Of a stretch of DNA of 52,716 nucleotides, positions 5,446 to 46,913 are shown piece after piece. Each line of letters starts with the position of its first letter. The first letter of the stretch is position 1. Made by a program: the position numbers and the translations under genes. The stretch is from Clostridia bacterium (GTDB lineage Bacteria; Bacillota; Clostridia; UMGS1883): contig JAFVPB010000009.1 in NCBI GenBank assembly GCA_017505525.1, forward strand, positions 52,765 through 105,480, written 5' to 3'. The notes beneath the pieces are model-generated. The model did no database searches, was not told the origin of the DNA, and was given only the letters and a program-made list of their open reading frames with translations.

Positions 5446-6825
5446 TTAATTTGATTTATAATTGTTAATATCTTCCATCATTCTTCTGTTTCTTTCTAAT
5501 TTAGCTTTTCTGCGCTCGATTCTTTTAACTTTACGGCGATGCCTTTCTTTAAGTATAAGAAGAACTACAACAACAAAAATTGTAATAAACAGCCATGGCG
5601 ATTTTATAAAAGCTATAATCTTGTTTATAAAATAAGCAACTGGGTCAAAAGTATAGTTTTTATCTGCAACTAATGGAATACATCCAACGCTTACTCCATT
5701 TAAAAAATATTCTCTTATTCCTATTTCTTGCTTTTCTTCAATCGGAGCACTTACTGACGACGGAACTTTATCTTTGTATGTTATTTCTGATTTTTCAACT
5801 TTATTATCTTTTAGAGCTTCAAGGCTTTTTCCTGCTTTAAGAATAACTTTTTTTGTTCTTCTTGAATTAACAAGTTTTGTTTGAGCAACAATCTTGTCCT
5901 CACTTACAATTTTCACACTACTGTAGTTGCTAAAAACATAATCAAACATATTTTTGCAATCAACAAAACTTATGGCAACATTTTCTTCCGTTTTTGCTCC
6001 AAAAATCAAGCACAGAAGCTCTGTATTACCTTTTTTTGCTGAAGCTGCAATACAGCTTTTTGCTTCGGCCGTGTAGCCTGTTTTTATTCCCGTTGAATAT
6101 TTATAATAGTAATCGGCTCTTAAAAGACTACTTACAAAGTGATTTCGGTTTATAATCTTACGTTCGCTCTTTGATTTTTCTGTTGGAGTTATTGTGTAGG
6201 ATTGAGTTTTTACTATTTCGCAAAACTCAGGAATAGACATAGCATATCTTGCTAAAATTGCCATATCACGCGTTGTTGAATAATGACGTTCATCATGCGC
6301 GCCGGTAGGGTTTGTAAAATTTGTATTTTTCATTCCTATTTCCGTTGCTTTTTTGTTCATCATGGCAACAAATTCTTCTGTGCTCCCCCCCACACCTTCA
6401 GCTAAAACGTTAGACGCATCAGCCGCTGAAGCAAGAATCATTCCGTGAAGGAGTTGCCTTACAGAAAGCTTTTCACCGGTAATTATACCCATTTTACTGT
6501 CGCCTTCAGAAATATTTGCCAATGCAGTTTCACTCGCCTCATAAAGCTTTTCAAGGTTTGCATTTTCAAGCACTACAACGGCCGTCATAATTTCTGTTAT
6601 TTCAGCAGGAAATATTTTATTCTTGGATTTTTTTTCATACAATACACTACCTGTATTCAGGTCAAGAAGAATAACATTTGAAGATTTTGCACTCAACTTA
6701 TCATTTTTTACCGTTTCTTCTTGTGCGAGTGTTTCCTCGTTACTTATATTCGTTGCACCAACAAGCGAAACATTAATCGCAAAAATAATCATTATTAAAA
6801 TAAATGATAAAATTTTCTTTTTCAT
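5446..6825 (-). CDS. DacF-like D-Ala-D-Ala carboxypeptidase homologue with degenerate active site
   Basis: Member of the S11 (PBP5/DacF) family that normally trims D-alanine from peptidoglycan side chains outside the membrane. 459 residues: signal peptide/anchor at 1-24, the S11 domain about 45-300, and a C-terminal membrane helix near 405-425 followed by a basic cytoplasmic tail. The S11 fold is recognisable and the KTG box is intact (residues 248-250, GIKTGYT). However, where the family has the SxxK nucleophile motif, this protein reads PAEITEIMT, so Ser and Lys are both Glu (75 and 78), and the SxN box reads S-A-A (133-135). I rechecked the codons (gaa, gaa) on the minus strand. It is therefore probably not a carboxypeptidase and may be a structural or substrate-binding paralogue. 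It is last in the ftsEX/M23/ctpA operon, starting two bases after ctpA. Confidence 0.85.
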   Translation of the reverse strand: MKKKILSFILIMIIFAINVSLVGATNISNEETLAQEETVKNDKLSAKSSNVILLDLNTGSVLYEKKSKNKIFPAEITEIMTAVVVLENANLEKLYEASETALANISEGDSKMGIITGEKLSVRQLLHGMILASAADASNVLAEGVGGSTEEFVAMMNKKATEIGMKNTNFTNPTGAHDERHYSTTRDMAILARYAMSIPEFCEIVKTQSYTITPTEKSKSERKIINRNHFVSSLLRADYYYKYSTGIKTGYTAEAKSCIAASAKKGNTELLCLIFGAKTEENVAISFVDCKNMFDYVFSNYSSVKIVSEDKIVAQTKLVNSRRTKKVILKAGKSLEALKDNKVEKSEITYKDKVPSSVSAPIEEKQEIGIREYFLNGVSVGCIPLVADKNYTFDPVAYFINKIIAFIKSPWLFITIFVVVVLLILKERHRRKVKRIERRKAKLERNRRMMEDINNYKSN

Positions 6826-6827
6826 TT

Positions 6828-8009
6828 TCAGTCCTCAACAGAATTATTTGCTTTCAAATATTTTATCGCTTCTATATAGCAGAAATCTTTTTCTATATTT
6901 TTATAGTCGGGATCTTCATCAACAACAATATCAGGAACAACCCCATCACTTAGCCATTTTCCATCGGGAGCGTAATTTTTCTTAGAGGTAATTTTAACTG
7001 CTCCTTCAGATTTATCATATCTATTTAATTCAACAATTGATTGACTTACACCCTTGCCAAACGTTTTTTCTCCAATAATAACTGCTCTGTTACGGCCCTT
7101 CATCGAGCCTGCAAAAATCTCAGCAGCACTTGCTGATTGTTTATTAACTAAAACAACCATAGGAGCATTAAATGAATATTTATCTGCAGTGTATACTTTT
7201 TTATTATTATCTTTATCAAGCGTATACATTATCTGTCCATCACTTAAAAATAAATCGCACATTCTTATAGCACTATTAAATTCTCCACCGGGATTATCAC
7301 GCAAATCAATTATAATTCCTTTTATGTTTTGTGAATTGTTTTCTTTTATAATTTTTTCAAATTCCTTATATGCTTTCTCTGAAAATCCCGTATAGCGAAC
7401 ATATAGAATGTTTTCATTTATTGAAGAAGAAACACTATAGTAATCAATTTTTGCTCTGTCTACTTTAATGTCAATTAATTCGTTTTCACGTTTAACTTTA
7501 ATTACAACACTGCCTTTTTCCTTTAGTTCTTCTTCTCTGCAACGCAAATATGCTGTTGCATCGGCTATTTGCGTTGCATTATATTTCTTCGAATCAATGC
7601 TTATAATTATATCTCCGCCTTTAATTCCTGCTTTTTCAGCTGGGGCACCCGGCAAGGCTGATATAATCTCTATATTATTTGTTTCGGGGTTGGCAAAAAC
7701 TTCTACACCTATTCCACAGTAGTAACCATCAATCATTCCGAAAAGTTTATTTGCAGACTCTTCATCGTAATATGCAGCATATTTATCTCCTGTTGTCGAA
7801 ATAAGTGCACGAACTGCGGCATCTTCGGCAGCTTTTTTATCATATGTATTTATATAATTATCTTCTATAATTTTTTCAACTTTTTTCAATCGACTATAAT
7901 CTATTCCTGATTCATCGTTTAATACATACATATGCAAAGAAGAAACGATTATAGATGTAACAAAAAATGTGATGATTACAGATAATAAAATTTTGCTGCT
8001 GTTTTTCAC
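6828..8009 (-). CDS. ctpA: S41 family C-terminal processing peptidase
   Basis: Membrane-anchored serine protease of the CtpA/CtpB family. 393 residues: N-terminal membrane helix (about 8-28), PDZ domain around 95-180, then the S41 domain. The Ser-Lys dyad is intact, Ser in NKQSASAAEIFAG and Lys in GEKTFGKG. GTG is the start codon (8007-8009), with GGAGGG a few bases upstream. It follows the M23 hydrolase gene by 15 bases. In this position across Firmicutes, S41 proteases sit next to FtsEX-M23 hydrolase genes and may control turnover of the secreted hydrolase or act in sporulation signalling as CtpB does; which applies here cannot be seen. Confidence 0.9.
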   Translation of the reverse strand: MKNSSKILLSVIITFFVTSIIVSSLHMYVLNDESGIDYSRLKKVEKIIEDNYINTYDKKAAEDAAVRALISTTGDKYAAYYDEESANKLFGMIDGYYCGIGVEVFANPETNNIEIISALPGAPAEKAGIKGGDIIISIDSKKYNATQIADATAYLRCREEELKEKGSVVIKVKRENELIDIKVDRAKIDYYSVSSSINENILYVRYTGFSEKAYKEFEKIIKENNSQNIKGIIIDLRDNPGGEFNSAIRMCDLFLSDGQIMYTLDKDNNKKVYTADKYSFNAPMVVLVNKQSASAAEIFAGSMKGRNRAVIIGEKTFGKGVSQSIVELNRYDKSEGAVKITSKKNYAPDGKWLSDGVVPDIVVDEDPDYKNIEKDFCYIEAIKYLKANNSVED

Positions 8010-8024
8010 ACTAACCCTCCGATA

Positions 8025-9191
8025 TTATTTAAGATAATCAAGTGGATTTGCTGTTGCACCGTTAACACGCACTTCAAAATGAAGATGTGGTCCTGTTGAA
8101 ACACCTGTAGAACCTGCTTTTGCTATAACCTGCCCTTTTGTAACCTTTTCTCCCTGAGAAACCAACAAGCTACTATTATGAGCATATAATGTTGTAATTC
8201 CGCTTCCGTGGTTAACAATAACACATTTTCCGTATCCACCGTTTGTTGCTGCCAAAGTAACAGTTCCGTCTGCAGAAGCAAGAATATCAACGCCATAACC
8301 TGCACCGATATCAATTCCTGAATGGAATTTTTTTGTCTTATATACTGGATGAATTCTATAACCGTACTGACTTGTAATTCTTGAACTTGAAGGAACAGGC
8401 CATAAAAATTTCCCACCAGTATATTTTACAGGATTAGAAGAGTATGAAAGTGCATTTTTATTACTGTTTATAAGAGCCTGTTCCGCTCTTTCAGCACTTT
8501 CGTAAATTGCCTTATACTTTTCAACATCCTGAGAAAGAGAATCTACCAATGCCTGTTTTTTTGCAAGATTCTTTTCTAATGTTGATTTTCTTGCAAGTAA
8601 ATTCTCTTTGTTTTTATTTTGTCGTTCAATTATATCTTCAATTTCCTGTTTTGCTTTAATGATAATTTGCTTTGCTTCTTCAAGCTTATCCAAAACTTCA
8701 TTATCATACTGCATCATCTGTGAAATTAATTCTATACGTTCAATAAAATCACTGAAAGATTTTGCACCAAATATAATTTCTATGTAAGCAACGTCTCCAT
8801 TTTCATACATAACCTGGGCTCTTGTAAGAAAATCAGACTGATATTCATTAAATTCCTTTTCGGCTTTTTCAAGTTCCTTTTCTTTAAGCTCAAGGTCCTT
8901 TTCAGCCTGCTGTATTTCGTTTTCAATAAATATTATTTCGTCTTCTGTTCTGCTTATTTCATTATCCAAAGCATTAAATTCTTTAATGGCATCGCTATAT
9001 TTTGCTTCTGCTGCATCCACGTCTTTCTTTGCATCATCTGTTTTTTTCTTTGCATCATTTAACTGCGACTGCGATGGAGCTGCAATTACAGGCATAACTA
9101 CTGATGCAAGAAATGCCGTTACAATTAAAAGTGCACACAAGCAAGCAGCAATTCTTTTTATTAAATCACGTTTGTTTTTTTTAATTTTCAT
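8025..9191 (-). CDS. Coiled-coil M23 murein hydrolase (EnvC/PcsB-like partner of FtsEX)
   Basis: Secreted cell-wall hydrolase or hydrolase activator. After a signal peptide (about 8-40) come two long coiled-coil segments, rich in Lys, Glu and Ala, up to about residue 245, then an M23 (LytM) domain of roughly 120 residues. The zinc-site motifs HSGIDIG (HxxxD) and HLHFEV (HxH) are intact, so the domain should be an active endopeptidase rather than an EnvC-type inactive one. I chose the ATG at 9191 (388 residues) because GAGGTG precedes it and the protein then begins MKIKKNKR ahead of the signal helix. It lies directly downstream of ftsEX; in related systems FtsX contacts the coiled coil and gates the hydrolase domain. 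Known analogues are CwlO (NlpC/P60), PcsB (CHAP) and EnvC. Confidence 0.9.
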   Translation of the reverse strand: MKIKKNKRDLIKRIAACLCALLIVTAFLASVVMPVIAAPSQSQLNDAKKKTDDAKKDVDAAEAKYSDAIKEFNALDNEISRTEDEIIFIENEIQQAEKDLELKEKELEKAEKEFNEYQSDFLTRAQVMYENGDVAYIEIIFGAKSFSDFIERIELISQMMQYDNEVLDKLEEAKQIIIKAKQEIEDIIERQNKNKENLLARKSTLEKNLAKKQALVDSLSQDVEKYKAIYESAERAEQALINSNKNALSYSSNPVKYTGGKFLWPVPSSSRITSQYGYRIHPVYKTKKFHSGIDIGAGYGVDILASADGTVTLAATNGGYGKCVIVNHGSGITTLYAHNSSLLVSQGEKVTKGQVIAKAGSTGVSTGPHLHFEVRVNGATANPLDYLK

Positions 9192-9239
9192 AACACACCT
9201 CATTAGCTGTTGCAAAAATATCAAGTCTGAAATATTCTA

Positions 9240-10124
9240 TTAAACTTTAAGGTAACGCTTAATAGAAAGTCCACTTCCTGCTGCACCCATTAACACTCCA
9301 AATCCAGCCATGCACAGCGCAAGCAAAAGTGCTACTGACTCAAGCTGAACAAAGGCGAACATACTTACAATACCACTAATAGATCCGATCGCAGCATTAT
9401 ATCCAAGCATTATTATAACAAATGAAACTATGAACCCTAATGATCCAATTATAATTCCCTCGAGAACGAAAGGAGTTCTTATAAAATGATCTGTAGCTCC
9501 AACGAATTTCATAATTTTAATTTCTCTTTCTCTTGCATATACGCTAAGTTTAATTGTGTTTTGGATAATAAATATTGCCACAATCAAAAGAATGATCATT
9601 GCTATTATGCTGCCGTGCTTAACAATATCTGTAAAGCTTATTACCTTTCCAACTATATCCTGTCTGTTTCTTACCTCTTCTACGCCTGGAATCCTGGCTA
9701 TTTTTTTAACAACTGCTTCTGAATTTCTTATATCCATTAAAGAAACCTTAACGGAGCTTCTTAAAAAGTCTTTACCTTCAAGCCCTTCAAGAACATCCGC
9801 TCTGTCGCCGAGCATTTCTTTAAAATTAGTAAAAGCCTGCGCTTTGGTTTCAAGTTCTGCATTTTCCACGCCATCAATTTTCAGAATAGCTTCATACGCA
9901 CTTTTTTGTGTGGCATCAGTAACATCAGGATGGATATATGCTGTGAGCTGACACTGTGATTCAATTTGTCTGCTTATAAAATTCATATTAGCTGTAAAAA
10001 GGAAAAATACACCAAACAAGAACAAACAACACGCGACTGTTGCAAAAGAAGCAAAAGTCATAATTCCGTTTCTTACAAAAGAGCTTAATGCGCTCTTTAA
10101 ATAATATTTAAAATTTCTAAACAC
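9240..10124 (-). CDS. ftsX: Cell division ABC transporter permease FtsX
   Basis: Integral membrane partner of FtsE; the complex does not transport but transmits ATPase-driven motion to an extracellular hydrolase. The predicted protein has the FtsX layout: one N-terminal membrane helix (about 12-45), a roughly 110-residue extracellular loop, then three C-terminal helices. The GTG at 10124 is preferred: GGGGTG lies ten bases before it and the protein then starts with FRNFKYYLKSAL as family members do. A longer frame from the ATG at 10151 is possible but lacks a good ribosome site. The gene overlaps the ftsE stop by eight bases, indicating coupled translation. The M23 gene follows after 48 bases and is its likely partner. 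Confidence 0.92.
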   Translation of the reverse strand: MFRNFKYYLKSALSSFVRNGIMTFASFATVACCLFLFGVFFLFTANMNFISRQIESQCQLTAYIHPDVTDATQKSAYEAILKIDGVENAELETKAQAFTNFKEMLGDRADVLEGLEGKDFLRSSVKVSLMDIRNSEAVVKKIARIPGVEEVRNRQDIVGKVISFTDIVKHGSIIAMIILLIVAIFIIQNTIKLSVYAREREIKIMKFVGATDHFIRTPFVLEGIIIGSLGFIVSFVIIMLGYNAAIGSISGIVSMFAFVQLESVALLLALCMAGFGVLMGAAGSGLSIKRYLKV

Positions 10125-10803
10125 CAAGATTATACACCCCGTTTTCTTCATCTCTTACAACCATACCGTTATCAAGTTGGATAACACGTTTGCACATATC
10201 ATTAACTATTTTTTCTGAATGCGTAACCATAACAATGGTTGTTCCCATTTTATTAATCTCATCAAAGATTTTCATAATATCGGCCGATGTTTCAACATCA
10301 AGATTTCCTGTTGGTTCATCGGCAATTATCAACGATGGACTGTTAACCAAAGCACGTGCAATGCTTACTCTCTGTTGCTCTCCTCCGGATATTTCGTGGG
10401 GATAATTATTGCCCTTATCACCAAGGCCAACAAGAGTTAAAATCTTAGGCACTTTTCTTCTTATTTCTTTTTTACTCTTACCTATAATTTCCATAGCAAA
10501 AGCTACATTTTCAAAAACAGTCTTGTTTGGCAGCAACCTGAAATCCTGGAAAACAACGCCCTGCGCTCTTCTTAAATAAGGAATTTTGGATCTTTTAAGC
10601 GAATTAACTATAATTCCATCAATAATAACATCACCGCTTGTAGGCTTAATCTCGCCTGTCAGAAGTTTTATTGCGGAGCTTTTTCCTGCACCTGTTTTTC
10701 CTACAAGGAAAACAAACTCTCCAGAATTAATTGTAAATGATGCTTTATCAAGACCCACAACATCTTTGTCGTATATAACTGTTACGTCTTTAAATTCTAT
10801 CAT
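10117..10803 (-). CDS. ftsE: Cell division ATP-binding protein FtsE
   Basis: Cytoplasmic ABC ATPase of the FtsEX complex. Walker A GKTGAGKSS, signature SGGEQQRVSIARA, Walker B LIIADEPTGNLD and the switch His region VMVTHSE are all intact. 228 residues, the usual FtsE length, if the ATG at 10803 is used; the ATG nine bases earlier directly abuts the AAAGGA ribosome site and is less likely. It follows the PucR-type regulator gene by 20 bases and overlaps ftsX, so regulator, FtsEX and hydrolase form one transcription unit. Confidence 0.94.
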   Translation of the reverse strand: MIEFKDVTVIYDKDVVGLDKASFTINSGEFVFLVGKTGAGKSSAIKLLTGEIKPTSGDVIIDGIIVNSLKRSKIPYLRRAQGVVFQDFRLLPNKTVFENVAFAMEIIGKSKKEIRRKVPKILTLVGLGDKGNNYPHEISGGEQQRVSIARALVNSPSLIIADEPTGNLDVETSADIMKIFDEINKMGTTIVMVTHSEKIVNDMCKRVIQLDNGMVVRDEENGVYNLGV

Positions 10804-10823
10804 TTGATTCATCCTTTCGCTTA

Positions 10824-11909
10824 TTAAATGCGCATTGGCTTAGAAGTTAAATATTTTTTAACCATTAATGCAACTTTAAAAACAATAGCATGGTCAAAAA
10901 TTCTAAGATCAAGCCCTGTTATTTTGCGCACTTTATCAAGTCTGTAAACAAGGGTATTTCTGTGAACATATAATTGTCTTGATGTTTCTGAAATGTTTAA
11001 ATTATTATCAAAGAACATCTGTATAGTATAAAGAGTTTCAGAATCAAGTGAATCGATTGACTCTTTTTTAAACACTTCAGATAAAAACAGTTCACACAGC
11101 GTTGTAGGAAGCTGGTAGATAAGCCTTGCAATTCCTAAGTTATCGTAGGAAATTATGTATTTATCCTCATCAAAAACCTTTCCTACCTCAAGAGCAATTC
11201 TTGCTTCTTTATAGCTTTTTGCTATATCCTTAATATTTGCAGCTATCGTTCCTACACCAATTTTTACATTAACGAGAGCTTCCGTAGTGATTGTATCTAT
11301 AATTTGTCTTGCTAAAAGTTCGGTTTCTCCGTCTTTGATGTTATCTTTGGCTTCCCTAACAATAACGATTGTATTATTATCAAGGTCAACAACAAAATCC
11401 TTTCCGTTGTCCGGGAATATTCCACTCACAATATCAAACACATCAAGACCACGAACCTCATCATACTGAAGCGCAAATACAATACGGTTCATATCATAAG
11501 CAATATGAAGTTCTTTGCTTTTAACAAACACATCTCCAGGCAATACACTGTCGGCAAGAATGTTTTTAATAAAATTTGTCTTATCATATTTATCATTATG
11601 AATAACTCGTATGCTGGCTACACTTGCGCAGAGCATTTCTGCATGTTTTTGTGCATTTTCACCCGTGTCTGCTACGAAAACAATGTATTCTGCTTTACCA
11701 CGAGCAACAGAAGCACAAAACGTATAGTCTCCCATTTGTACAATATGCTTTTGATCATCAATACATTTTGAAATAATTAAGCTAATATTTTCTTCACTAA
11801 ACTCTCCGCCTGCAGAAGCTACAGTGCCTGATGGCTCAATAACTCCTACGCAACACCCTAAAATTTTATGCATTTGGTTAAGCATAGAGTTCAAGTATTT
11901 ATTTACCAT
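10824..11909 (-). CDS. PucR/CdaR-family helix-turn-helix regulator
   Basis: 361-residue predicted transcription regulator. The C-terminal 60 residues contain the PucR-type HTH: a long helix then NISETSRQLYVHRNTLVYRL, typical of the family that includes the sugar-diacid regulator CdaR (not the c-di-AMP protein of the same name). The middle is a GGDEF-like or sensor fold of the kind usual in this family, and the N-terminal 100 residues, with IEPSGTVASAGGEF, may be a small-molecule domain. The start was set at the ATG at 11909, six bases after GGGAGGG. Being first gene of the ftsEX operon, it may regulate this operon or sense a wall-related ligand, but its position could also be incidental. Effector unknown. 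Confidence 0.8.
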   Translation of the reverse strand: MVNKYLNSMLNQMHKILGCCVGVIEPSGTVASAGGEFSEENISLIISKCIDDQKHIVQMGDYTFCASVARGKAEYIVFVADTGENAQKHAEMLCASVASIRVIHNDKYDKTNFIKNILADSVLPGDVFVKSKELHIAYDMNRIVFALQYDEVRGLDVFDIVSGIFPDNGKDFVVDLDNNTIVIVREAKDNIKDGETELLARQIIDTITTEALVNVKIGVGTIAANIKDIAKSYKEARIALEVGKVFDEDKYIISYDNLGIARLIYQLPTTLCELFLSEVFKKESIDSLDSETLYTIQMFFDNNLNISETSRQLYVHRNTLVYRLDKVRKITGLDLRIFDHAIVFKVALMVKKYLTSKPMRI

Positions 11910-11946
11910 AAACATCCCTCCCAAAGGACTACTCATAGTTATCTAT

Positions 11947-41531: not shown

Positions 41532-41548
41532 TGTAATCTAATTGTTAT
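41532..41548 (+). promoter_or_regulatory. WalR-type box upstream of walR
   Basis: TGTAAT-CTAAT-TGTTAT, an exact match to TGTWAH-N5-TGTWAH, 22 bases before the walR -35 and 15 bases upstream of the divergent FHA-operon -35. Confidence 0.5.
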
Positions 41549-41570: not shown

Positions 41571-41599
41571 TTGACACCGAAGCAAAAATGCTATAAAAT
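41571..41599 (+). promoter_or_regulatory. Promoter of walRK
   Basis: Consensus -35 TTGACA (41571-41576), 17-base spacer, -10 TAAAAT (41594-41599), about 30 bases before walR. Confidence 0.75.
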
Positions 41600-41628: not shown

Positions 41629-42318
41629 ATGGAAAAAGTTATTCTTGTTGTTGATGATGAGGCTCCTATAGTTGATATTTTAAAATATAATTTAACCAAA
41701 TCAGGCTATAAAGTTATTTGCGCTTACGACGGAGAAGAAGGTTACAAGCTCGCTATAGAGCAAAAGCCCGACTTGATTCTTCTAGACGTAATGCTTCCGA
41801 AGATGGAAGGCTTTGAGGTTTGTAAAAAAATACGCGAAAAACATACAATGCCCATAATTATGCTTACGGCACGTGATGAAGAATTTGATAAGGTTTTAGG
41901 TCTCGAACTTGGTGCAGACGATTATATGACAAAGCCTTTTTCAAACAGAGAATTACTTGCCCGCATTAAGGCAAATTTAAGGCGTAATGTTACAGAGCCA
42001 CAAGCCAATGATGAAGTTCAGTTACTTACATTTAATAACCTTGCAATTAATCCATCAAGATATGAAGTTTCTAAAAATGATGTTGTTATAGACCTCACTC
42101 TCCGTGAGTTTGAGCTTTTAAAATTCCTTGCACTTCAGCCGGGCAAAATTTTCACGCGAGAAATTCTTCTTGAAAAAGTTTGGGGATATGAATACTTCGG
42201 TGATGTGCGTACTGTTGACGTTACAGTGCGCCGTCTTCGCGAAAAAATTGAAGACAACCCAGCAGCTCCCCTTTTTATTATGACAAAGCGCGGAGTGGGT
42301 TATTATTTCAACAAATAA
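41629..42318 (+). CDS. walR: WalR-like response regulator (OmpR/PhoB family)
   Basis: DNA-binding regulator phosphorylated by WalK. 229 residues: receiver domain with the acidic pair DD (9-10), phospho-acceptor Asp53 in LILLDVMLP, Lys in the TKPF stretch; then a C-terminal winged helix with GYEYFGDVRTVDVTVRRLREK, the OmpR-type recognition segment. GGAGGGG precedes the start. WalR rather than PhoP is inferred mainly from the YycH/YycI genes downstream. In Bacillus and Staphylococcus, WalR controls wall hydrolases through the TGTWAH direct repeat; three such boxes are seen in this window. Confidence 0.9.
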   Translation: MEKVILVVDDEAPIVDILKYNLTKSGYKVICAYDGEEGYKLAIEQKPDLILLDVMLPKMEGFEVCKKIREKHTMPIIMLTARDEEFDKVLGLELGADDYMTKPFSNRELLARIKANLRRNVTEPQANDEVQLLTFNNLAINPSRYEVSKNDVVIDLTLREFELLKFLALQPGKIFTREILLEKVWGYEYFGDVRTVDVTVRRLREKIEDNPAAPLFIMTKRGVGYYFNK

Positions 42319-42337: not shown

Positions 42338-44113
42338 ATGTTTAAAAGTATTCAATGGAAAATTATTGCAATATTTCTTTTGCTCACTGTAAGCGTTATG
42401 ATAGTTACAGGCACATTTTTACTTCAAAATATCTCTGCCTATTATTATAACGACTTCAGCGACTCTCTTACCAATCAGGTTTTTAATTCTGATTTTACCG
42501 AAGAACTTGAAAATGCAGCAAAGGGAGCAAATAGTAAAGATACAATAATGGAGCTTTTAGGTGCTTATTCTATAAGAATGGGTATAGATTCATTCAGAAA
42601 CTACTATCTTTTAGATTCATCACTTAATATCCTTGGAAGCTCAACCAAAGCAAGCGGAACGATAGAAGGAACTCCAAATCTTTTATTGGCTTTAACGGGA
42701 AGCGTTGGTACAACTGTTGATAAAAACGCAGAATATATGGACTACGCCTTTCCAATCAAAATTGATAAAACAACTAAATACATAGTCTATATTTCAGATA
42801 CAAAAGAAGAAATTAACGACGTATTGGGAAATATGTTTATAAACATTTTCTGGGCTCTTCTGTTTGGTCTTCTTTTAAGTGCAATACTGGGATTCTTCCT
42901 TTCAAGAACAATAATTGCTCCCATTTCCTCGTTACAAAGCCGAAGTGAAGCTCTTGCCGAGGGTGATTTTGGAAGAAAACTCGAGGTTCGTTCCCGCGAC
43001 GAGATAGGCAGACTTACAGTTGCATTTAATAATATGGCTGCCAGGATTAACGGCAGCATGGAAGAAATACAAACAGAAAAAAATAAGATTGAAGCAATTC
43101 TTCTTCATATGACAGATGCCGTTGCAGCATATGATAACAGCGGAAATCTTATACACATAAATCCCGCTGGCGAAGCGCTTCTCAATGAATATAAAAACGA
43201 AACATTTGATAATCTGTTTGAAAGATTGGAAGCAAATATTTCATTATACAGAATTCTTTATATTGATCCAACAGAAACAATAGAACGTGATATTGAGTTC
43301 AACAATAAAACGCTTAAGGCATTTTTCGCTCCTTTTAATACTGAACGTTCCTTAGCAGCAGGAGTGGTTGTTGTTTTCCACGACAGAACGCATCAGCAGA
43401 TGCTCGACAATTCAAGGCGAGAATTCGTTGCAAATGTTTCTCACGAGTTAAGAACACCTTTAACTACTATTAAAAGCTATGCCGAAACAATTTCAGATAT
43501 GGCACAAGACATTGATAATGAAAGCCCGATTCGTTCATTTATTAAAGTAATTGAAAATGAAGCCGACAGGATGACGCGTCTTGTAAAAGACCTTCTCACC
43601 CTCTCTCAATTCGATAGTAACAAGCGTGAAATCAAACGCGAAAAATTTAATTTAGCAAAACTTATTACAAATATTGTCGAGAAAATGTCGATAAATGCAA
43701 AGTCAACATCTCACAGAATAAAACTATCAATTGATATGAAATCAGAGGATTATTTTGGCGAGCCAGATGCAATTGAGCAGGTTTTAACAAATATTATTTC
43801 AAATTCTATCAAGTACACTCATAACGGCGGTAAAATCGACGTTGTCTGCCACAGCGATTTTGAAAATATTACAATTACTGTTAAGGATAACGGCATAGGA
43901 ATTCCCGAAAACGATTTAGCAAGAATTTTCGAACGTTTCTACAGGGTTGACAAAGCCAGAAGCCGTCAAAGCGGTGGAACGGGCCTTGGACTTGCAATTG
44001 CCAAGGAAATAATAACCCGCCATAGCGGAACAATAGAAATATTTAGTCCTGAACAAAAAGGCACTCTGGTAAAAATTACATTGCCTTTATTTGAAAAAGT
44101 AACGAACCATTAA
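42338..44113 (+). CDS. walK: WalK-like sensor histidine kinase
   Basis: Membrane sensor kinase, 591 residues: first membrane helix (about 8-28), an extracellular sensor domain (about 30-165), second helix (about 166-188), HAMP (189-241), PAS (about 250-350), HisKA with phospho-acceptor His369 in VANVSHELRTPL, and a HATPase domain with NIISNSIKYT and GTGLGLAIAKEI. The order HAMP-PAS-HisKA-HATPase is that of WalK. Nineteen bases after walR. Followed by a separate promoter and WalR-type box for a secreted protein. Confidence 0.93.
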   Translation: MFKSIQWKIIAIFLLLTVSVMIVTGTFLLQNISAYYYNDFSDSLTNQVFNSDFTEELENAAKGANSKDTIMELLGAYSIRMGIDSFRNYYLLDSSLNILGSSTKASGTIEGTPNLLLALTGSVGTTVDKNAEYMDYAFPIKIDKTTKYIVYISDTKEEINDVLGNMFINIFWALLFGLLLSAILGFFLSRTIIAPISSLQSRSEALAEGDFGRKLEVRSRDEIGRLTVAFNNMAARINGSMEEIQTEKNKIEAILLHMTDAVAAYDNSGNLIHINPAGEALLNEYKNETFDNLFERLEANISLYRILYIDPTETIERDIEFNNKTLKAFFAPFNTERSLAAGVVVVFHDRTHQQMLDNSRREFVANVSHELRTPLTTIKSYAETISDMAQDIDNESPIRSFIKVIENEADRMTRLVKDLLTLSQFDSNKREIKREKFNLAKLITNIVEKMSINAKSTSHRIKLSIDMKSEDYFGEPDAIEQVLTNIISNSIKYTHNGGKIDVVCHSDFENITITVKDNGIGIPENDLARIFERFYRVDKARSRQSGGTGLGLAIAKEIITRHSGTIEIFSPEQKGTLVKITLPLFEKVTNH

Positions 44114-44120
44114 GCCTTTC

Positions 44121-44152
44121 GTAACACTGTTGTAACATTGTTAGTGTATAAT
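44121..44152 (+). promoter_or_regulatory. WalR-boxed promoter for the secreted protein
   Basis: GTAACA-CTGTT-GTAACA (44121-44137; the opposite strand reads TGTTAC-N5-TGTTAC, an exact WalR consensus) followed nine bases later by -10 TATAAT (44147-44152). No good -35: its expected place is covered by the box, as expected for an activator-dependent promoter. Confidence 0.55.
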
Positions 44153-44195
44153 AGCATTGTAAGAATACAATTTACATATTTAGGATGTGCATATT

Positions 44196-44672
44196 ATGAA
44201 AAAAATAATTGCAGTATTAACTGCACTTATCATCATATGTTTCTCGTTTTCAGCATATGCAGCTAACCCCGGCACAATTTCATCAGGTGATGCAGGAACT
44301 GCCTGGGATTTGATTGTTGTAAGAAAACCCGAAACTAAAAATTCAGCAACACTTAAAAAAACATATGGTATCACAGGTACTGGTAAAAACGGTGTATCTG
44401 TTGCTTATTATAAGTTTAACGGTTCAAATTATGTTGCTCTTAAAACATCAAACGGTGCCATTTCTCAATCAAAGGTTGGAACTGCAGGAGTATTTTACAA
44501 ACAAGTTAACCTTTCCGAAGGTCATAACAAGTTTGCAGTAAGAGCCGAACATCCAAATGGCTATTATCAGGTTGTTTATTTTGATATCAACGTGTTAACC
44601 CAACAAATGATTAATAATGTTTCAGGTTTTTCAAACGGAATACAGTCATTATATAACGGCTGGATGAATTAA
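44196..44672 (+). CDS. Secreted protein of unknown function in the wal locus
   Basis: I do not recognise a family. 158 residues with a clear Sec signal peptide (hydrophobic core 4-19; likely cleavage after AYA) and a mature part of about 135 residues rich in Gly, Ser, Asn and short beta strands (SVAYYKFNGSNYVAL, QVNLSEGHNKFAVRAE, YYQVVYFDINVL), ending with an amphipathic helix (QQMINNVSGFSNGIQSLYNGW). There are no Cys. Looks like a small beta-sandwich, possibly a wall-binding or inhibitor protein. It has its own WalR-type box and promoter and is followed by a strong terminator, so it is a separate, potentially highly expressed unit inserted between walK and yycH. The ATG at 44196 is used; the GTG at 44187 has poorer spacing. 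Confidence 0.8.
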   Translation: MKKIIAVLTALIIICFSFSAYAANPGTISSGDAGTAWDLIVVRKPETKNSATLKKTYGITGTGKNGVSVAYYKFNGSNYVALKTSNGAISQSKVGTAGVFYKQVNLSEGHNKFAVRAEHPNGYYQVVYFDINVLTQQMINNVSGFSNGIQSLYNGWMN

Positions 44673-44675
44673 AAC

Positions 44676-44710
44676 AAAAAAGCTTCAGGCGGTTGTCTGA
44701 AGCTTTTTTT
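44676..44710 (+). terminator. Terminator after the secreted protein gene
   Basis: Stem GCTTCAG/CTGAAGC extended by A6/T7 pairs, eight-base loop, T-run. It lies before yycH, which would then depend on read-through or an unseen promoter. Confidence 0.9.
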
Positions 44711-44730: not shown

Positions 44731-46167
44731 GTGATTAAAGAAAGAATAAAAAGTTCGGTAATCATTCTTCTTATAGTAAATATAATTTTTCTTACATCTA
44801 AATTATGGTTTGTATACGGCTCACGACATATAGGCGAAGAAATCATCAAACAGGTTAAATCACTTCCTGTGATAAGTTCCTTCTTTCCCACGGAAACACC
44901 CTACAGTATACCTAAAGAAAATTTATCAAAACCAAGAAAATTTCTTATAAACGACGGTTCATTATGGATGGCTTATTACAACACTGATATAGGATATTCT
45001 CCTATCGAAGAAAGAATACGTACTATTGTAAAAGGTTTTTTAAGAGGAGATATTTCTGCTTCAAAAAAAACAGATTACGAAACCTGGCAGGCCGGACTTG
45101 AGTCTTACAGCATTTATGTAGAATACCCCATCTCCTACTCTATGGAACTATTCAGTAAAGTGATGGATGTTGATCCACAGTTTTCACCAAAAGATATTTC
45201 TTCATTACGCGATTTTATAATTATCCCCTCAAGCAGTGAAACTGATGTTTGCATACTTGTCCGCGACTATAACGATAATTCTAAAATTTATGCTTATATT
45301 CTCAACCCTTCATATCAATTTCCTGCTTCTGACCTTAATGTATATGCCAATAGCGGAGACGGATATTATGAACCCGCATTCAGCACAGGCTTGATGCTCG
45401 AAACCAAAAATAATATTTCTCTTTATCCTATGGTGCTTTTTTCTGATTCTCAGCCCGAAAGTAGTGTTCTGTCCTCCTCGCCTTTAATTAACGAGGATTC
45501 TCAGCATTTACTTTTGGAAAACTTCTCGATAAACAGTGCAACAAAGCCTTATACAAATCAGGATGGCACAAAAAATTATATTGAAAACTATGCAAGCGCT
45601 AAAATCTATACCGATGCAGTTTTTGAGTATGTAAGCATCAATAATGAAAAAGGTATTATTCTCAATGAAAGCGGGGATGCTTACGCTGTTTTAAATTCGG
45701 CTATTGACTTTGCAGAAAATATATGGAAATGTGTTTCCGACGAGCCTCTTAATGTTTTATTAACAAGCGACCTTTCAGATTATGATAGCCAAAAACCTTT
45801 TAAATTTGAATTTGACTACTACTGTAATGGCAGACCTGTTAATCTATCTTTAAAAGAAGAAAACGGCCATGAAGCATTAAACAGCGCCATAGAGATTACA
45901 GTATACAACGGTATGCTTGTATCTTACAGGCAAAACATGCGCGAATATAATGAAGCAACAAAAGAACCACTTTCAGCACCATTTATTTCAGCACTTGATT
46001 ACTTTGTGAAAATACTTGACGAAGAGGGACTGAAAAACGCCGAAATCAAAGATATATATATTGGCTATTTAGACAAAGGAACTCCCGATTTAATTAAAGC
46101 AAACTGGCTTTGCAAGGTTGATAATAAAATATATAGTTACATTCAGGAAGCAGAGGTGGCACAATGA
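44731..46167 (+). CDS. yycH: YycH-like regulator of WalRK
   Basis: Membrane-anchored extracellular protein; YycH in Bacillus restrains WalK, in Staphylococcus it activates. 478 residues from the GTG at 44731, which has AAGGTGG eight bases upstream. One N-terminal membrane helix (about 10-28) and a large extracellular part. Sequence is divergent; identification relies on size, topology, the neighbouring YycI-like gene and the wal location. The upstream terminator is unusual. Stop overlaps yycI by four bases. Confidence 0.75.
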   Translation: MIKERIKSSVIILLIVNIIFLTSKLWFVYGSRHIGEEIIKQVKSLPVISSFFPTETPYSIPKENLSKPRKFLINDGSLWMAYYNTDIGYSPIEERIRTIVKGFLRGDISASKKTDYETWQAGLESYSIYVEYPISYSMELFSKVMDVDPQFSPKDISSLRDFIIIPSSSETDVCILVRDYNDNSKIYAYILNPSYQFPASDLNVYANSGDGYYEPAFSTGLMLETKNNISLYPMVLFSDSQPESSVLSSSPLINEDSQHLLLENFSINSATKPYTNQDGTKNYIENYASAKIYTDAVFEYVSINNEKGIILNESGDAYAVLNSAIDFAENIWKCVSDEPLNVLLTSDLSDYDSQKPFKFEFDYYCNGRPVNLSLKEENGHEALNSAIEITVYNGMLVSYRQNMREYNEATKEPLSAPFISALDYFVKILDEEGLKNAEIKDIYIGYLDKGTPDLIKANWLCKVDNKIYSYIQEAEVAQ

Positions 46168-46913
46168 ATTGGATTAAATTAAAAAACATTATGCTGTGTT
46201 TTCTGATATTTATGAACATACTTTTATTGGGTATTATTTCCCTTTCCACGCTTATTGAAGAAAACATTCCCGAAAATGCAGTAAATTCAGGCATCCAAAT
46301 TTTAAAGAACGACGGTTTTGATTGCAGCTTTGATGTTTTTCCAAAAAAATATGAATCGATACCTACTCTTACCTCTAAATTTTATTCTGCAACAGAACTT
46401 TCAGAAATATTTTTTGAAAAACAGGTTGCATTTAAAACAGAAGAAAATTCGCTTATAGCCACTAACGGTAATGCTACTCTTGTAATTACAGATAATCTGT
46501 TTACTTATAAAACCGCAGAGGCTGTTGTTAATGCTTCACCTTCAAAACTTCTGAAAAAATTAAAAAAGCTTGGAATTGACATGCAGGGTGCTGTGTATGA
46601 TGAAAAGAACAAGCGTTTTATAAAGCAATATGACGGATTTAATATCTTTAATATGTATTTAGATGTACGGCTTAATAAAGATGATGACATCTGCTATGCA
46701 AGTGGATTATGGCCCATTATAACCTCCGTTGGAGAAAATAAGCATCTTTCTTTTTCTTCTCATGTTTTAAAAGTAAAAGAACTGTTTCCCAATGGTGGTA
46801 ATATCACAAAAATCCAACTTGGCTATTCAATTAATGATATTAGAAAAGGGAAAATTGCTTTTATTCCTTCATGGGAAATCACAGTAAACAAGGAAACAAA
46901 AATATTATCATAA
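46164..46913 (+). CDS. yycI: YycI-like regulator of WalRK
   Basis: Single-pass membrane protein, 249 residues. Starts MNWIKLKNIMLCFLIFMNILLL, the usual YycI opening (W-x-K-x-K-N before the helix), followed by an extracellular alpha-beta part resembling the YycI domain. Overlaps yycH by four bases (ATGA). YycH and YycI form a heterodimer in the membrane with WalK. The usual downstream walJ (metallo-hydrolase) and htrA are missing. Confidence 0.82.
   Translation: MNWIKLKNIMLCFLIFMNILLLGIISLSTLIEENIPENAVNSGIQILKNDGFDCSFDVFPKKYESIPTLTSKFYSATELSEIFFEKQVAFKTEENSLIATNGNATLVITDNLFTYKTAEAVVNASPSKLLKKLKKLGIDMQGAVYDEKNKRFIKQYDGFNIFNMYLDVRLNKDDDICYASGLWPIITSVGENKHLSFSSHVLKVKELFPNGGNITKIQLGYSINDIRKGKIAFIPSWEITVNKETKILS

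Follow-up and report, generated by a model that had tools for sequence, protein, structure and literature searches.

The WalRK two-component system has proved essential in most of the Bacillota examined, and is a candidate drug target. To our knowledge, the stimulus of the sensor kinase WalK and the resetting of the sensor remain open questions outside the Bacilli. The response regulator, WalR, falls in the same OmpR/PhoB class as PhoB, which activates the E. coli phoA promoter. Another two-component system, Cpx of E. coli, includes CpxP, a small secreted protein that is encoded beside the two-component genes, is strongly induced, and feeds back on the sensor.

In B. subtilis, the accessory proteins WalH and WalI (YycH and YycI) inhibit WalK, and iseA is repressed by WalR~P (PMC7299342). 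One study reports that YycHI activate WalRK in S. aureus (PMC5013275). The C. difficile operon, walA-walR-walK-truA2, has no yycH and is reported not to be autoregulated; walA, located upstream of walR, encodes a lipoprotein with a predicted beta-propeller (PMC9210968). Absence of autoregulation is reported for the wal operons examined to date, a rule that rests on the species studied (PMC9210968, PMC4801191).

Here we describe a wal locus from a member of the Clostridia (assembly GCA_017505525.1, contig JAFVPB010000009.1), contained in a window, meaning the whole stretch of DNA analyzed, of 52,716 nucleotides. A gene designated X lies between walK and yycH. A preliminary description of this DNA had noted X as a signal-peptide protein with a WalR-boxed promoter and a terminator of its own. 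In the open-access literature on WalRK and yycH in Clostridia beyond C. difficile, we found no description of this gene.

Results

The wal locus of the window

Features of the locus are collected in Table 1. The best NCBIfam match of walK, to HK_WalK (E 7.9e-141), falls below the cut-off of that model. A Pfam search with the window's yycH product returned no match, while Foldseek with its predicted structure found chain B of 9a5d, a WALK-YYCH model (E 4.5e-17), and B. subtilis YycH, 2fgt (E 2.8e-15); these matches indicate that the name yycH is right. A one-mismatch WalR box at 41532-41548, upstream of the walR promoter, is probably a chance occurrence; the box alone occurs upstream of walR in just 2 of 50 relatives' loci, and so is not conserved there.

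Table 1. Features of the wal locus, in window coordinates. Regulatory sites and protein regions are predictions.
Feature	Position	Strand	Basis or remark
walR promoter, TTGACA-N17-TAAAAT	41571..41599	+	ordinary sigma-A type
walR, response regulator	41629..42318	+	NF040534 (YycF equivalog), 348.5 bits, above cut-off 340
walK, sensor kinase (HAMP, PAS, HisKA, HATPase)	42338..44113	+	NF033092 (HK_WalK) and Pfam domains
Upstream half-sites AGTAAC (44098-44103) and ATTAAG (44109-44114)	44098..44114	+	overlap walK 3' end
WalR-like box CGTAAC-N5-TGTAAC	44120..44136	+	covers -35 position
-10 element TATAAT	44147..44152	+	10 nt past box
X, predicted secreted Ig-like protein, 158 aa	44196..44672	+	ATG at 44196, stop ends at 44672
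X signal peptide, residues 1-22	44196..44261	+	AxA site
X Ig-like beta-sandwich, about residues 38-134	44307..44597	+	AlphaFold2 model, 1ug9 alignment
X amphipathic C-terminal helix, residues 136-157	44601..44666	+	AlphaFold2 model, hydrophobic moment
Intrinsic terminator after X	44676..44709	+	15-bp stem, one mismatch, T-rich tail
yycH (walH) homolog	44731..46167	+	predicted-structure match
yycI (walI) homolog	46164..46913	+	PF09648, E 3.1e-6, 27.4 bits, just under cut-off 29.7

X is predicted to be a secreted single-domain protein

The N-terminus of the window protein is hydrophobic and carries a cleavage site, AYA|A. An AxA site occurs in 90 of 91 X homologs and a lipobox-like motif in one; the signal of X is predicted to be cleavable, and the protein to be exported. 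The AlphaFold2 model of X (mean pLDDT 81) places a beta-sandwich of nine strands between a signal helix and a C-terminal helix whose hydrophobic moment is 0.39, versus 0.16 for shuffled sequence.

X matched no family in Pfam or NCBIfam at that family's cut-off, and sequence and profile searches of X against PDB gave no significant match. The NCBIfam matches that did appear cover the signal peptide alone or single members, and matches to Colicin_E5 and Adhesin were rejected as weak and local. The top structural match by VIA-align is to residues 689-773 of 1ug9 (Z 10.4, rmsd 2.1, 85 aligned residues), that is, domain B of glucodextranase. The corresponding model, PF09136 (Glucodextran_B), scores the window protein at 17 bits, below the Pfam gathering cut-off of 27 and therefore short of membership, and gives weak matches in 19 of 48 homologs (best E 1.1e-5). 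The earlier view that X belongs to no known family thus holds at the cut-offs, while the fold and the weak profile matches point to Ig domains of the Glucodextran_B type. X is predicted to be a single-domain protein with this fold. Ig-like folds are common, so the prediction tells little about function. We found no catalytic pattern conserved among X homologs; the invariant residues look structural.

X is conserved with yycH across many lineages

A single-sequence search detected one copy of X in each of 40 relatives out of 98, and a profile search found X in 90 of 393 Clostridia genomes. In 73 of those 90, yycH lies immediately 3' of X on the same strand, and WalR-WalK is encoded upstream in most. 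X is thus linked to the wal locus across genomes in the manner of WalK accessory proteins of the YycH/YycI type. Many of the loci come from metagenome-assembled genomes; a named-genome search seeded with an 8-row alignment returned 15 loci, all of them from Clostridia assemblies of this kind, mostly from animal gut. The preliminary description had allowed that its reading would fall if the gene were absent or unrelated at this locus in close relatives; gene, position, and box instead proved to be conserved across more than 30 families.

With a wider profile, the arrangement was seen to recur in six families that do not belong to the class Clostridia. For the 29 loci read with this profile, 28 of them outside the class, the box and -10 element precede X in all, and walK is detectable in 28. 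Of 18 YycH loci without a match to the X profile, the majority encode a small exported protein after walK, mostly behind the same box. Two others (L166 and L169) have yycH directly after walK, with neither X nor box; one of the two is a genome of 1.2 Mb.

In several families, walRK is found apart from yycH and X is still next to yycH (L060, L062, L063, L031, L034, L117, L124, L126, L127). The box before X-yycH is usually kept at such split loci, although L124 and L126 lack a clear one. Because X-yycH persists, usually with its box, where walK is elsewhere, the box serves X-yycH and is not something left over from the end of walK.

The X promoter carries a conserved WalR-type operator

The box before X differs from TGTWAH-N5-TGTWAH by one mismatch in the window, and fits it exactly in congeners and most relatives, which places X, by this binding-motif test, in the putative WalR regulon. 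The window contains 4 one-mismatch matches to the box alone where 1.4 are expected, so the box would be weak evidence if the window were taken alone. Once the 10-nt spacing to a -10 element is required as well, the 2.4 Mb genome has no other such site. The pattern [TC]GTWAH-N5-TGTWAH-N10/11-TANNNT occurs upstream of X in 86 of 93 loci, which are related genomes and not independent samples, yet span more than 30 families. Dinucleotide shuffles of the same regions gave a mean of 0.01 and a maximum of 1, and the reverse strand upstream of X in the 93 loci gave none. The spacer between box and -10 element is 10 nt in 70 loci and 11 nt in 10. Box plus -10 element was found upstream of walR in 0 of 50 loci and upstream of yycH in 0 of 98. 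A search of 27 whole genomes with a strict version of the pattern returned 17 matches, every one at X, and the reversed strict pattern returned 0 from the same genomes.

Alignment of 76 relatives' promoters revealed, by column conservation, extra half-sites at -22 and -11. The operator is therefore longer than first noted: the box itself stands, and in the window it completes a series of four half-sites beginning at 44098, 44109, 44120, and 44131, an 11-bp period, with the first two over the walK 3' end. The consensus of the putative X operator and promoter is TGTAAY-N5-TGTAAY-N10/11-TATAAT.

The promoter geometry suggests activation

The aligned promoters have a nearly invariant -10 element. 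At a spacing of 16-18 nt, the best match to a -35 element averages 2.14 of 6 positions, no better than the 2.53 seen at random positions. These results support the original description of a box that overlaps the expected -35 element in a promoter of the activator-dependent kind. The region directly 5' of E. coli phoA reads TGTCAT-N5-TGTCAC-N10-TATAGT, and the PhoB-activated phoA promoter thus has the same geometry as the X promoter. The X box replaces the -35 element and lies 10-11 nt from the -10 element, the placement expected for activation by regulators of the OmpR/PhoB type.

Repression has to be weighed, as the X box covers the -35 position and reaches to about -23. In S. aureus, WalR activates from sites upstream of -35 and represses from sites that lie between the -35 and -10 elements or downstream of them (PMC10746227); iseA, moreover, is a precedent for a secreted protein under WalR repression (PMC7299342). 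By this account WalR would block X through cover of the -35 element, and X would be made when Wal signaling is low, as IseA is. The X promoter, however, has no -35 element to cover, and the letters of the box preclude a good one; the fixed spacing of 10-11 nt and the array of four half-sites are the geometry of PhoB activation. We regard repression as very unlikely. WalR very probably acts positively on the X promoter, and X can be viewed, from the conserved box and its activator-type placement, as a probable Wal output, as originally proposed.

The regulator is very probably WalR

PhoP-type regulators read repeats similar to those read by WalR. A phosphate regulator, PhoP or PnpR, is from the same regulator family and uses the same 11-bp direct-repeat geometry, and could in principle own the X box. 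We examined 10 pstS upstream regions from 8 of the same genomes. Those with clear repeats have TTTAAC or TTAACA units, and none of the 10 has a TGTAAC box. The X box, furthermore, sits in the wal locus, and other matching sites precede cell-wall genes, which fits WalR. We consider assignment to a phosphate regulator highly improbable; the regulator of the X box is very probably WalR. We strongly infer both this identity and activation of the X promoter.

Very regular arrays of the Pho type (TTTAACATAGATTTAAC...) were seen before pstS at L264, L262, L263, and L272, and help to separate PhoP from WalR operators in Clostridia.

Pattern searches, by which the regulon was sampled, also turned up several further sites. 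A WalR-like box, TGTAAC-N5-TGTAAA, occurs in the window at 12008-11992 on the minus strand, upstream of a likely -35/-10 pair. The operon behind it (5446-11936) contains a CdaR-like gene, ftsE, ftsX, and genes for an M23 coiled-coil hydrolase, an S41 C-terminal protease, and a D-Ala-D-Ala carboxypeptidase, names that were assigned by reading translations; this ftsEX-M23 operon is a possible second Wal target. A degenerate box, TGTAAC-N5-TTTAAT-N10 followed by a -10 element, precedes a class A penicillin-binding protein gene (G000:C13:16503-16535, L224) and recurs in L218, L219, L220, and L223, and so is conserved in the window's family. Elsewhere in the window's genome, three tandem TGTAAY half-sites (G000:C59, 1759-1775, L229) lie between divergent genes for an HtrA-like protease and an S-layer-homology protein. 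One congener has a second perfect WalR-type promoter (G005:C3:35468-35500, L225), before a gene for a 131-residue membrane protein with no Pfam family.

A predicted terminator follows X in a few lineages

Among the loci of the window's family (L041-L057), X is mostly followed by a hairpin like the terminator in Table 1. For most other families, the gap between X and yycH is short, often 5-60 nt, and shows no hairpin. The putative terminator is chiefly a trait of the window's family, shared by a few others, and the description of X as an independent unit applies there; as a statement for all lineages we reject it. The general unit is probably box-X-yycH(-yycI), and X-yycH looks like one operon outside the window's family.

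X may modulate the sensor complex

Mirror-tree comparison within the main clade gave partial correlations of X divergence with the WalK extracellular domain of 0.62, with YycH of 0.58, and with the cytoplasmic HAMP/PAS part of WalK of 0.02. This support is indirect, because fast evolution common to parts beyond the membrane would give the same picture. A first reading, which put the WalK extracellular domain far above YycH, was discarded: the difference came in part from one deep split, and the two are similar in the main clade, so we read the values only as "outside, not inside."

We lean toward the view that X is an extracytoplasmic modulator of the WalK/YycH sensor complex, activated by WalR~P and forming an accessory part of WalRK. 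The constant pairing of X with yycH, the operator dedicated to it, and the co-variation described above speak for this view. In the proposed mechanism, WalR~P would bind the tandem 11-bp half-sites in place of a -35 element and activate the X promoter in the manner of PhoB. The exported X would then consist of one Ig-like domain plus the amphipathic C-terminal helix. The X promoter probably also reads yycH, and yycI, in most lineages; in the window's family the terminator would leave X as the chief product. Beyond the membrane, X would most likely act on the complex of WalK and YycH, with or without YycI, and in this way the Wal output would tune its own sensor, probably by damping. Action as a feedback ligand for the WalK sensor, one of the roles first suggested, is plausible and is the mechanism we prefer. 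Which protein X acts on, and whether the feedback is negative or positive, we only infer; damping is a guess, based on its being the commoner design. YycHI/WalHI have opposite effects in B. subtilis and S. aureus, so the sign of the X effect is not predictable from them.

A wall effector would also be secreted without a lipobox, as X is. The Ig domain could bind peptidoglycan or a wall polysaccharide, or X could modulate hydrolases or penicillin-binding proteins, again under Wal activation; domains of the Glucodextran_B type are found in carbohydrate enzymes, and the other boxed genes are wall genes. X is nevertheless locked to yycH and not to hydrolases, even where walRK is elsewhere, it is single copy, and its invariant residues appear structural, with no conserved catalytic set. 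We judge a wall effector unlikely. The more specific suggestion of a hydrolase inhibitor like IseA fares poorly, given the Ig-like predicted fold and a promoter that looks activated where iseA is repressed by WalR~P (PMC7299342); the IseA/YoeB family is missing from the Pfam and NCBIfam matches and from the structure lists shown for X, an absence that alone excludes nothing.

The position of X beside yycH, the likely co-transcription, and the co-variation of X with YycH would also suit an assembly or stability factor, a structural subunit or chaperone for YycH/YycI or WalK with no part in feedback. A WalR-type promoter apart from that of walRK, and in one family a terminator that would leave X in excess, suggest a regulator tuned by dosage more than a subunit of fixed stoichiometry, and we hold the assembly role to be rather improbable.

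Discussion

The core Wal system in many Clostridia, and in several neighboring lineages, may have a component not previously described. We put it at an even chance that WalR there drives a secreted Ig-like modulator together with yycHI, in an autoregulatory loop absent from models built on Bacilli. X is a defined candidate for the missing extracytoplasmic Wal modulator, and the X loop, if confirmed, would be an exception to the rule of non-autoregulated wal operons. Among the genomes scanned with the strict pattern, the X operator is the only perfect WalR-type promoter found, which makes it a natural reporter for Wal activity, and its consensus offers a clean motif with which clostridial WalR regulons can be predicted.

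Glucodextranase domain B (PF09136, 1ug9) shares the predicted Ig-like fold of X, but X stands alone, is secreted, and has a C-terminal helix with no enzyme attached. By functional analogy, X in the proposed reading resembles CpxP as an induced, sensor-modulating accessory protein; CpxP, however, is helical with LTXXQ motifs and comes from a different phylum, and X matches no such family. The gene iseA lies outside the wal locus, and the fold of IseA differs from that predicted for X. IseA (YoeB) of B. subtilis is, like X, a small secreted protein, under WalR control but by repression (PMC7299342), where X is predicted to be activated and Ig-like. WalA of C. difficile is, like X, an exported accessory protein from a clostridial wal operon, but is a lipoprotein with a predicted beta-propeller, encoded 5' of walR. 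YycH and YycI (WalH and WalI) share with X a place in the wal locus, an extracytoplasmic location, and the lack of an enzymatic signature; they are membrane-anchored and have another fold, whereas X has a predicted cleavable signal and a WalR-type operator of its own.
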